Notes under the pieces: generated by a model
What the model was told of the DNA's origin: nothing
Databases searched by the model: none
What the model saw: the letters and a program-made list of their open reading frames with translations, nothing else
Position numbers and translations under genes: made by a program
Shown: one piece after another, positions 11,063 to 58,516 of the stretch
Layout of the letters: every line of letters begins with the position of its first letter
How positions within the stretch are numbered: the first letter of the stretch is position 1
Source: Periplaneta americana
Taxonomy: Eukaryota > Arthropoda > Insecta > Blattodea > Blattidae
DNA length: 64,000 nt
Direction: 5' to 3'
Assembly: GCF_040183065.1 (NCBI RefSeq)
Contig: NC_091123.1
Coordinates: forward strand, 110,892,821-110,956,820

Positions 11063-11395
11063 ATGATATGCGTAAGTAATCACTTAGTGATTTAAGACGG
11101 CGCTCATTCCGTCGGATCCCTGCCACTTCGTCACTCGTAACGAGTGCACCTCTGCACATAGTGTGTTGGACATTGTGCCACTGTTACACATCTGTGACAC
11201 AGTGCATGAGAGTTGGCTACTAAAGGGAAACTAAGAGGTGGAACTTAAACTGAGAGGATTCAATCCGGAATTGGAACAGGAATCCGGTGTGGCTTAGTGG
11301 ATAAAGCGTCAGCACGTAGAGCTGAAAATCCAGGTTCGAGTCCTGGTGCCGAAAAGAATTTTTCTCCGGTCCGCCCATCCTTCATCATACCGTAA
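11063..11395 (+). mobile_element. SINE family D body followed by a second tRNA-like head
   Basis: The body runs from ATGATATGCGTAAGTAATC through TCGTAACGAGTGCACC to GGAATTGGAACAGG. A fresh tRNA-like head follows: GTGTGGCTTAGTGGATAAAG (A box) at about 11282-11301 and GGTTCGAGTCC (B box) at about 11334-11344. The usual post-head block AGAATTTTTCTCCGG then CCATCCTTCATCATACCG ends the copy. So the locus is a composite of at least two SINE units. Confidence 0.75.
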
Positions 11396-16872: not shown

Positions 16873-16890
16873 AAAAAGTATACATACATA

Positions 16891-17228
16891 TGTATCAACT
16901 TACAAAGAATTCAACAATTTGATTTAGATAAGAGCTACATGTATACAAGAATTATTTACGAATTAAACATACATGTGTATCAACTTACAAAGAATTCAAC
17001 AATTTGATTTAGATAAGAGCTACATGTATACAAGAGTTATTTACGAATTAAACATACATGTGTATCAACTTACAAAGAATTCAACAATTTGATTTAGATA
17101 AGAGCTACATGTATACTAGAATTATTTACGGATTAAACATACATGTGTATCAACTTACAAAGAATTCAACAATTTGATTTAGATAAGAGCTACATGTATA
17201 CAAGAGTTATTTACGAAATAAACAACAA
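16891..17228. repeat. Tandem array of four 85-bp units
   Basis: The 20-mer TGTATCAACTTACAAAGAAT recurs at 16891, 16976, 17061 and 17146, exactly 85 bp apart. The rest of each unit (CAACAATTTGATTTAGATAA, GAGCTACATGTATAC, TTATTTACG-ATTAAACATAC) differs by only one or two bases between units. The array directly follows the retroelement 3'-end motif at 16821-16872. Near-identity shows recent expansion. Confidence 0.95.
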
Positions 17229-55194: not shown

Positions 55195-56770
55195 CCGTTT
55201 TTTCAGACTCGTCACTATTCGTGTGTTTTTCTTTTTTAAAATTCGCTCTTATTCGCGAGTTTTTTCTTCATTTTTCCAGACTCGAGTCTATTTGTGCGTT
55301 TCTTTATTTTTATCACATCCCGAGGGCTTAGTGTGAAACTAACGTAACTACAAAAATTTAAGTTTTTAGATTCTTACACAAATCGATAACAAATTCGTCC
55401 TTCAATTGGTTACAAAAAATCGTAACTCACTTCCGATCAGTCTTGTAGGCTATATAATAGACTACAATTCGTAACTACAAAATAGGCTATGATGGTATAG
55501 GCCCTACATAGTTCATGGAAATTTGTTGTGAATAAAGAACTGAATTCAGTTATGTTAATTTCATATTAAGCCCTCGACTCGCGTTTTTTTTTTCAGACCT
55601 GTGTTTAGATTTGCGTTTTTTTTTTCTTTTTTTCTGACTGGCGTTTAGCCTATTAATGTATTTTCTCTCTTTTTCCAGAGTCGCGTTTATTCCTGCGTTT
55701 TCTTCCCACACTCACGTTTATCGTGCACTTTTTTCTTCTTTTTTTCCAGACTCGCATTTATTCCTGAATTATTTTCAGACTCGCGTTTATTCGTTCGTTT
55801 TATTCAGACTCGAGTTTATTCATGCGTTTTCTTTTCAGACTTGCGTTCATCCATCCACTTCTCTTTATCTATGCCAGACTCGCGTTTATTTGTGCGCTTT
55901 TTTCAGATTCGCATTTATTAGTGCGATTTTCTTTTTTTTTCTAGGCTCCGTTTATTCGTGCGGTTTTTTTTTTTTTACAAAATTGCGTTTTTCGTGCAAT
56001 TTTCTTTTTTTTAAGGCTTGTGTTTATTCGTACGGTTTTCATTTTTTTCAGAATTCCATTTATTCTTGTGGTTTTCGGTTTTTTCAGGCTTGCGTTTATT
56101 CGTGCAGTTTTCCTTTTTTCATCAGGTCACATTAATTCGCGCGGTTTCCTTTTCTTTTTCCAGACTCGCGTTTATTCGTGCGGTTTTCTTTTTTTTCAGA
56201 GTCGCGTTTATTCGTGCGTTTTTTTTCAGACTTGCGTTTACTCGTGTGCGTTTTCTTTTTTCGAGACTCGTGTTTGTTCGTGCGTTTTTTCTTTTTTTTT
56301 TTAAGACTCGTGTTTGCTCGTACGGTTTTCACTTTCTCAGAGTCCCATTTATTCTTGCGGTTTTCGGTTTTTTCAGACTTGCGTTTATTCGTGCAGTTTT
56401 CTTTTTTTTTTCAGACTCATGTTTATTCGTGCTGTTTTCTTTTTTTTTTTCAGACGCGTGATTGTGCAATTTTTTTTTTCAGAGTCGCGTTTATTTGTAC
56501 GTTTTTTTTCAGACTTGCGTTTATTCGTGCGGTTTTCTTTTTTTTCAGACTCGTGATTGGTTGTGCAGTTTTCTTTTTTTTTTTTCAGACTCGCGTTTAT
56601 TCGTGCGTTTTTTTTTCTTTTCTTTTAGGCTCAGGTTTATTCGTGCGTTTCTTAAGTCTCATTTTTTTCGTGCGTAGGCTATTTATTTTCTCAGACCCGT
56701 GTTTATTCGTGCATTTTTTTTATAATTAATTTTTTCCGTGCGTATTTATTTGTTTCAGACCCTCATTTAT
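55195..56770. repeat. Diverged minisatellite, unit about 35-45 bp
   Basis: The unit is a T-run of variable length followed by CAGACTCGCGTTTATTCGTG and CGGTTTTC. About 35 units are seen, with interruption by unrelated DNA at 55330-55560. Variation is mainly in T-run length, with scattered substitutions. Six long plus-strand frames rich in Phe/Ser (up to 183 codons) arise from it and are not genes. Confidence 0.95.
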
Positions 56771-57112: not shown

Positions 57113-57647
57113 TGGCACTCGAAATCTGCAGCTGTGGAAAATTTTAATTTGTCTCTTTTGAAAGTAATTTTCTTTATGACAGCTCTATAAAAGATTTTAC
57201 GTCTCTTGTATGAGTCATGACTGAAAAACGGGGGAAAATTGTTCGAACAATAAAACAGAATTTAGAAGTGACTGACAAATTCGGAAAGGAAGGACGAGAT
57301 ATTAAGCGGACGGTAGATTATGGATTATGGATGAATTTATAACTAACTTAGATTGGATTATCTGCTGTGTTTTTCGTCTTCCCGGGATAACTGCGAATTT
57401 TCAGTATGTTCACAGAGAAGATGACGTAATAATTACGAGTCCAAAAGTTGCGTACTTCCTCATGCAGCAGTGATGATAAAATAATAATGACAGTAATAGA
57501 GAATTTAATTCACAGGGTAGGCTACAGTGGCGTACGCAGGATTTTGTCAAGTGAGGTTATTATTAAAATTGTTTACAATTTACAATACCAGTATTTTAAA
57601 TTTTATTCTACAATTTGGATTCCTCGTTAGAGGTCTTTCCTTCTCCA

Positions 57648-57727
57648 CTCTGCCCTAGAGTAGTGATCGACAGATTTTTGTCATCACACTTCTCTAGCTG
57701 AAGAGGCGAATTGAAGCCGAAACAGAG
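57648..57727 (+). ncRNA. Hammerhead ribozyme-like fold (type III topology), cleavage U mutated
   Basis: Every stem can be drawn by hand. Stem III is CTCTG (57648-57652) with CAGAG (57723-57727), five perfect pairs. Stem I is CTAGAG (57655-57660) with CTCTAG (57692-57697), six perfect pairs, capped by the hairpin GTGAT-c-GACA/TGTC-ATCAC (57663-57687). The core strand CTGAAGA (57698-57704) fits CUGANGA. Stem II is GGC (57705-57707) with GCC (57716-57718), and the second core strand GAAA is at 57719-57722. Cleavage would fall after 57654. The base at position 16.1 (57653), normally U and paired to the last A of GAAA, is C. That change should abolish or strongly reduce activity, so this is a slightly decayed ribozyme rather than a proven active one. 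Confidence 0.6.
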
Positions 57728-57920
57728 AAAAACGCAAAACAACAATTAGAGTTTACACTCTTAAAATCACAAGTTTGTGTTTTCACGAGTCTTTTCCAAA
57801 GGTTTGATCCTTTGACCGCTTTTGGTATTATCCTTTTGCAGTTTTTGGATCTTCCAAAGGTTTTGACTGGTGACAACACAAAATGGGACGATATTCTTTA
57901 CCCCAGTTTCCGAATCACCG

Positions 57921-57946
57921 GTTTCGAACTATTCGGTTCTCATCAG
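57921..57946 (-). ncRNA. Hammerhead-type core on the opposite arm
   Basis: The minus strand reads CTGATGA (57946-57940), GAAC/GTTC stem II (57939-57936 with 57929-57926) around CGAATA, then GAAAC (57925-57921). Both conserved strands are exact. I could not find a matching stem I partner or a UH cleavage site at the right place, although CCG...CGG just after GAAA could be a short stem III. Confidence 0.45.
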
Positions 57947-58077
57947 CACGACTAAGACAGAACAGAGTGGAGAAAGAAAAAGACCTCTAATGAGGGATCC
58001 AAACTGTAGAATTTGATACACCTCCACAAATGCTATTGCTTTGTCTTTTGACTTATGTCTTTAAATTTTATGTACCG

Positions 58078-58184: not shown

Positions 58185-58516
58185 TACGTCCCGCTCCGTG
58201 GCGTCGTGGTCTAAGGCATCCTGCCTAAGACTCGCGTTACGGAATGCGCGCTGGTTCGAGTCCCCATGGGGAAGAAATTGTCTCATGAAATTTCGGCCAG
58301 TGTATGCCCCCACCCAGCATCGTGATGCACTTGGGGAGCTACGATAGGTAGTGAAATCCGGTTACGAAAGCCAGATACAACGCCTGGGGGGAACATCGTG
58401 CTAACCACACGATACCTCCATTCTGGTTGGATGATTATCCACCTCTGCTTCGGCATATGGACGTGAGGCCAGCAGCCCGCTGGTCAATCTGGGCCCTTCA
58501 TGGGCTGTAGAGCCAA
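58185..58516 (+). mobile_element. Full-length tRNA-derived SINE (family C) with ATT tail
   Basis: CGTGGCGTCGTGGTCTAAGG is a strong A box and GGTTCGAGTCCCCATGGGG a B box. The body runs through GTGTATGCCCCCACCCAGCA, GTGCTAACCACACGATACCT, CCATTCTGGTTGGATGAT and GGGCCCTTCATGGGCTGTAG. The (ATT)n tail (58518-58557) follows directly. 63485-63667 is a 5'-truncated copy with the same tail. Confidence 0.92.

Follow-up and report, generated by a model that had tools for sequence, protein, structure and literature searches.

A retrozyme-like, probably Penelope-mobilised element family of Periplaneta americana carrying a type III hammerhead domain on each strand

Introduction

The window analysed here, a stretch of 64,000 nucleotides of Periplaneta americana DNA (contig NC_091123.1, positions 110,892,821 to 110,956,820 of the forward strand), contains at 57648-57727 a sequence that resembles a hammerhead ribozyme (HHR). 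A first-pass annotation, made from the letters alone, described all of its parts as present and in the correct order, the sole departure being C at 57653, where U is expected at position 16.1. This locus raises the question of whether the site is the remnant of a ribozyme or a chance resemblance, and of what kind of element carries it.

Results

HHR+, the hammerhead of the window copy

All parts named in the first-pass annotation were found where it had placed them. The segment, referred to as HHR+, is an extended type III hammerhead on the plus strand that has everything except U at 16.1, and is composed as follows.

57648-57727, plus strand: HHR+, extended type III hammerhead with C at position 16.1
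57648-57652 (CTCTG) and 57723-57727 (CAGAG), plus strand: stem III
57653, plus strand: position 16.1, C here and U in 72 of 75 family instances
57654, plus strand: position H17, a C
57655-57660 (CTAGAG) and 57692-57697 (CTCTAG), plus strand: stem I, 6 bp
57655-57697, plus strand: stem I region with internal loop TA/ACTT and a 9-bp capped hairpin
57698-57704, plus strand: core strand C3-A9, CTGAAGA, exact in 64 of 75 instances
57705-57722, plus strand: stem II GGC/GCC with an 8-nt loop, followed by G12-A15.1, GAAA, the latter exact in 61 of 75 instances

At minimum free energy, the window copy folds into the hammerhead without the 15.1-16.1 pair (z -2.76), and L005, a natural copy bearing U, folds into the hammerhead with this pair included (z -3.15). 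Stems I and II are closed in the fold and stem III is open, which assigns the domain to type III. Judged by the C at 16.1, HHR+ of the window copy is presumed inactive.

A type III descriptor matches the window site only when no particular letter is demanded at 16.1. Applied to 200 Mb of Markov sequence generated with the dinucleotides of the window, this relaxed form gave 4 matches and the strict form 1, and the number of chance matches expected for the relaxed form on both window strands is about 0.003. These rates agree with the initial assessment that a chance origin is very unlikely. At the gathering threshold, Rfam reported a single tRNA in the window and called no hammerhead. Relaxed cmscan of the window disclosed Hammerhead_1 with 13.7 bits on the plus strand and 17.2 bits on the minus strand (57952-57914), the gathering score being 34, and cmscan of six family copies, taken up to E 1, found no hammerhead. 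A likely reason why Rfam misses HHR+ is its long stem I.

Family copies and the letter at position 16.1

The genome containing the window comprises 3.23 Gb in 91 contigs. Two DNA searches yielded 443 and 465 first-look candidates, the best 40 of each being scored; 70 loci were collected and 11 repeats removed, leaving 59 distinct loci which, as the best-scoring ones, represent the best-preserved copies. Mean identity among aligned pieces of at least 250 bases of the sampled copies is 90.4%. A match to HHR+ with up to 8 edits is present in all 59 loci, giving 75 instances altogether. Position 16.1 is U in 72 of them (65 GTC, 3 GTA, 3 ATC and 1 GTT) and differs in the other three (2 GCC and 1 TCC), with a slight bias toward U introduced by reading 16.1 at a fixed offset in the fuzzy match.

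As a check set, exact matches to the second HHR+ strand were used, which occur at 60 places in the genome (0 for the reversed-pattern control). Forty of these lie outside the sampled loci, and 39 were fetched (C2:115594472 was left out). U was observed at 16.1 in 36 of the 39 places (33 GTC, 2 ATC and 1 CTC), while the position is not readable in the other three, one lacking the first strand and two having indels at the site. The full HHR+ descriptor is passed by 30 of the 59 loci and by 24 of the 39 further places. All copy counts rest on best-scoring loci, except those of the 39-place set, whose members were selected by an exact match to one ribozyme strand. In both sets, U at the position of 57653, suggested at the outset as the letter to look for in other copies, is the prevailing one.

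Constraint on HHR+

Thirty copies, of which 29 are distinct, were aligned. Among 695 pair cells in the HHR+ stems, 96.5% are standard and the rest are broken. Two-sided changes were found in none of the 29 distinct copies, leaving the structure without covariation support. Mean minor frequency is 0.030 in HHR+ vs 0.056 outside both HHR domains (one-sided p 0.010), and a variant reaches at least 10% in 1 of 81 HHR+ sites. Broken HHR+ pairs are the pattern given by neutral decay of separate dead copies; selection on source elements combined with neutral decay of inserted copies would give such an HHR+ pattern. Stem-breaking substitutions without compensation, which the first-pass annotation named as evidence against a ribozyme, are thus present but few.

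The element in the window

The annotation had assigned the span 57595-58016 to the element. Homology to family copies, together with target-site duplications (TSDs), corrects it to 57607-58059. In the list below, ends are classified on the family unit as A (unit positions 460-510) or B (within 8 of the unit start).

57595-57606: left TSD, TTTAAATTTTAT, identical to 58060-58071
57607-58059, minus strand: whole inserted element, a fold-back copy, 3' end B at 57607
57607-57955, plus strand: long arm, which starts at fixed end B (TCTACAATTTGG) and covers unit positions about 4-351
57918-57952, minus strand: HHR- core remnant, second type III hammerhead
57956-57958: fold-back junction
57959-58059, minus strand: inverted short arm, which runs back from unit position about 54, passes end B and enters the A-side tail
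58060-58071: right TSD, TTTAAATTTTAT, followed by a (TTA)n run

The TSD around this element is 12 bp long. We infer that its transposed RNA reads on the minus strand. The copy in the window is decayed, a dead member of a probable retroelement family.

Other repeats were noticed in the window. Just past the (TTA)n run, a tRNA-like stretch at 58190-58300 looks by eye like a SINE head and scores below the Rfam gathering threshold. A tRNA-like repeat head at 11283-11354 scores 51.7 bits to RF00005, and the presence of a very similar head three times in L009 makes a tRNA-derived SINE more probable here than a tRNA gene. Tandem repeats comprise a degenerate 36-bp array of about 20 copies (55898-56622) and four copies of an 85-bp unit with 96% matches (16882-17224).

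HHR-, a second hammerhead domain on the opposite strand

A second hammerhead-like domain, HHR-, which is absent from the first-pass annotation, was detected on the minus strand of the window, with its core at 57946-57918. Its layout in the family is that of a classical type III hammerhead, with a 6-bp stem I closed by a 6-nt loop, CUGAUGA, a 4-bp stem II, GAAA, U16.1 and C17. The window keeps only 57918-57952, that is, the 3' strand of stem I, CTGATGA, stem II GAAC/GTTC, GAAA and CCGG, the 5' part being missing at the fold-back junction. HHR- is found in 50 of the 59 loci (51 instances), with the 5' part lacking in L001, L004, L035 and one instance of L038, and with deletions in a few others. 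Most of the 51 instances retain the core together with stems I and II, and the 29-nt core is exact at 41 places in the genome (0 for the control).

The flaw of HHR- is a conserved C.U mismatch between 15.2 and 16.2 in stem III, adjacent to the A15.1-U16.1 pair, so that stem III is not continuous. At 15.2, C is found in the majority of the 51 instances; at 16.2, the 85 genome matches show U 80 times, C 3 times, A twice and G never. A lenient descriptor that allows one mismatch in stem III gives 1 match per 600 Mb of random sequence and is passed by only 6 of 30 loci. HHR- does not take a hammerhead shape in its minimum-free-energy fold, and the reduction in its variability does not reach significance (p 0.19). 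HHR- is regarded as a real hammerhead domain and a putative ribozyme.

Two further readings of HHR- were set aside. A type I arrangement was rejected by eye, as no stem III closes, and the few two-sided changes in stem I are explicable by CpG decay and were not counted as covariation.

Unit, ends and target sites

The family unit is non-coding and about 536 nt long (536 nt in L008). The longest ORF in two natural units read as circles is 41 aa, and the G+C content of two copies is 0.35-0.37. An inverted arm is absent in 29 of the 59 copies, referred to as direct copies. They have one fixed end (A, or B, which is 68 nt shorter) and one variable end; 22 start from B, 5 from A, and 2 are other. 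Among the 30 fold-backs, 26 combine one A and one B end in head-to-head arrangement and 4 are of another kind, while like-with-like combinations number 0.

Eight of the 29 direct copies are longer than 600 bp, the longest being 854 bp (up to 1.6 units), and an array of two full units was found in none of the 59 loci. Some copies start at A or B and then read again through the unit start, and 23 of the 29 direct copies run past the HHR- site. Passage through both the unit start and the HHR- site indicates a template that was circular, multimeric or uncut at HHR-, and a circle or multimer is likely. Read as a circle, the plus strand folds better than 30 shuffles in two natural copies (z -3.3 and -5.2), and the minus strand of the same copies folds less strongly (z -2.3 and -2.1, again with 30 shuffles). 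Pairing involves 58-62% of the circle, and no clear rod is formed.

Two details of individual copies can be added. One direct copy, L033, carries two HHR+ domains 537 bp apart (positions 835 and 1372), a layout that would release unit-length RNA; both domains differ from the common form. L008 and L024 are separate insertions that end at nearly the same place, unit position about 113-114, inside the stem II loop of HHR+.

TSDs of at least 10 bp flank 24 of the 59 copies vs 36 of 3422 mismatched flank pairs (1.05%), and at the threshold of at least 8 bp the numbers are 28 of 59 vs 291 of 3422 (8.5%). No TSD of at least 8 bp was found in 31 of the 59 copies, and where found, TSD length varies from 8 to 14 bp. 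In target-primed reverse transcription, the end common to copies corresponds to the 3' end of the RNA. From this we infer that the copied RNA is the minus strand. A carries a 68-nt tail beyond B. Neither fixed end coincides with the predicted cleavage site of HHR+ or HHR-.

Penelope elements in the genome

Among the best 150 of 7667 candidates scored, at least 108 GIY-YIG matches at E 0.001 or better were obtained. The locus L077 (10-1824) contains a 604-aa open frame with RVT_1 and GIY-YIG domains and no internal stop, and represents a Penelope element. Inverted repeats of at least 500 bp were observed in 6 of 20 GIY-YIG loci, at 4 separate places. No sequence common to the unit and these 20 loci with their 1.5-kb flanks was found in this small sample of the 7667 candidates, and the core CTGANGA...GAAAC occurs in none of the 20. 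The best GIY-YIG match among those scored, L071 (C85:1043112-1043339), lies in a 631-aa open frame on a contig far down the list, and might be something other than Penelope, from a bacterial contig in the assembly.

Comparison with known systems

In the accessible parts of PMC7229834, metazoan retrozymes have type I hammerheads and units of about 170-400 nt, and type I is also the type reported for Penelope-like elements. The family shares with metazoan non-LTR retrozymes, as described there, a small non-coding unit, low G+C content, a TSD longer than 4 bp, a hammerhead and copies that extend beyond one unit. It differs from them in the type III hammerhead, the length of about 536 nt, the lack of a two-unit array, the ribozyme domain on the opposite strand and the fold-backs.

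Penelope is characterized, as far as PMC3846280 is accessible, by pLTRs in inverted orientation, one of which can carry a 31-bp tail, and by TSDs 8-10 bp long. Corresponding features of the family are head-to-head inverted copies, an extra tail at one end, TSDs of about 10 bp, and truncated and partly tandem copies. Compared with these Penelope descriptions, it has no RT/GIY-YIG ORF, its tail is 68 nt instead of 31, and its ribozymes are of type III; the family can thus be a non-autonomous partner at most. The insertion anatomy agrees with the initial guess of a retrozyme-like or Penelope-like family, but the hammerheads are type III and not the reported type I.

According to the accessible text of PMC7936874, HDV-like RNAs from a termite and from a toad have extended type III hammerheads in either strand; relatives are present in the genomes of termites and flies, and none was found in the one cockroach searched. 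HHR+ resembles the hammerheads of these epsilon viruses in its type and in a long stem I built of a short stem, an internal loop and an extra hairpin, and the family resembles them in having hammerhead domains in both polarities (PMC7936874, PMC11721086, as far as accessible). Differences from these accounts are the absence of a delta antigen ORF, a unit about a third as long, a stem II of 3 bp, and the absence in HHR+ of the 4-bp pseudoknot between the stem I internal loop and the stem II loop, the longest pairing being 2 nt, or 3 with flanks. For zeta viruses, the accessible portion of PMC11721086 gives a size range of 324-789 nt and hammerheads in both orientations, as in the family, and two open frames with a length that is usually a multiple of 3. 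Unlike these agents, the family has a unit of 536 nt, which is not a multiple of 3, a longest ORF of 41 aa and the form of a chromosomal retroelement.

Plant LTR retrozymes have LTRs and a 4-bp TSD, unlike the TSDs of 8-14 bp and the single variable end observed here. The carnation retroviroid-like element is a small RNA circle of a plant with a DNA counterpart and ribozymes; the present family differs from it in the 59 distinct chromosomal copies examined and the hundreds of first-look candidates. This plant element is mentioned in PMC7761336. Exact scans of IMG/VR for the HHR+ and HHR- cores gave 0 matches. A full-text literature search, with subscription papers mostly outside its range, revealed no element with hammerhead domains on both strands.

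Discussion

The family is probably a retrozyme-like element that is non-autonomous, is mobilised by Penelope and bears a type III ribozyme domain on each strand. According to this model, transcripts of copies longer than one unit, or rolling-circle transcripts, would be cut by HHR+ into RNA of about 536 nt, which would be able to close into circles. A Penelope-type RT/endonuclease would copy the RNA of opposite sense by target-primed reverse transcription from A or B, and fold-backs would arise when priming occurs at both target sides at once. RNA of the other polarity would be processed by HHR-, provided that cleavage is still possible with its weakened stem III. This model is weakened by the lack of compensatory changes in HHR+, the flaws of HHR-, the absence of sequence common to the unit and the 20 GIY-YIG loci, the 31 of 59 copies in which no TSD of at least 8 bp was found, the sampling of the best-preserved loci, and the location of A and B away from both predicted cleavage sites.

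A narrower form of this explanation, which is a serious possibility but falls somewhat short of being probable, retains mobilisation by Penelope and considers only HHR+ functional, HHR- being a relic of an older sense-strand ribozyme. Consistent with a relic are the stem III mismatch throughout the sampled family, with G never observed at 16.2, the lack of significant constraint and the direct copies that cross the HHR- site. The exactness of the 29-nt core at 41 places, and the preservation of other parts in most of the 51 instances, argue against it.

It appears rather unlikely that the element is retroviroid-like, in the sense that its paired ribozymes took part, or still take part, in rolling-circle replication from RNA to RNA in both polarities, with genomic copies as reverse-transcribed records of this replicon. 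The location of HHR+ and HHR- on opposite strands of one unit of about 536 nt with no ORF above 41 aa, the copying of this unit for more than one turn and the folding of the plus circle would suit such replication. It is opposed by the imperfect HHR- in the copies seen, the chromosomal location of copies with TSDs, and the moderately paired circle without a clear rod.

The inverted arms of the window copy are also reminiscent of a MITE-type DNA transposon with terminal inverted repeats and an accidental hammerhead, but this is highly improbable given that 29 of 59 copies lack an inverted arm, one end is variable, copies exceed one unit, TSD length varies and the outer ends of fold-backs are of different kinds; a DNA transposon with two like ends and a fixed TSD length is contradicted by this end structure. 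Chance resemblance to a hammerhead, with which the lack of covariation would agree, is hardly credible, being contradicted by the descriptor null rates (1 and 4 per 200 Mb) and by U16.1 across the family.

Under the favoured explanation of a Penelope-mobilised, retrozyme-like element, an extended type III hammerhead is placed in a mobile element of an animal genome. What is new is the second type III hammerhead domain on the opposite strand of such an element; described retrozymes carry one ribozyme only, as stated in the accessible part of a 2024 review (PMC11721086). As a tentative suggestion, the family may be a chromosomal animal retroelement whose hammerheads on both strands allow plus as well as minus circles to be made. 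It would then be a genome-resident, retrotransposing equivalent of viroid-like and epsilon/zeta agents, and the paired type III ribozymes of these agents might stem from such a cellular source. The accessible text of PMC7936874 considers a cellular source of this kind as one that HDV-like RNAs may have drawn their ribozymes from. Hammerhead domains on both strands of a genomic family would weaken a rule of thumb in screens for infectious circles.
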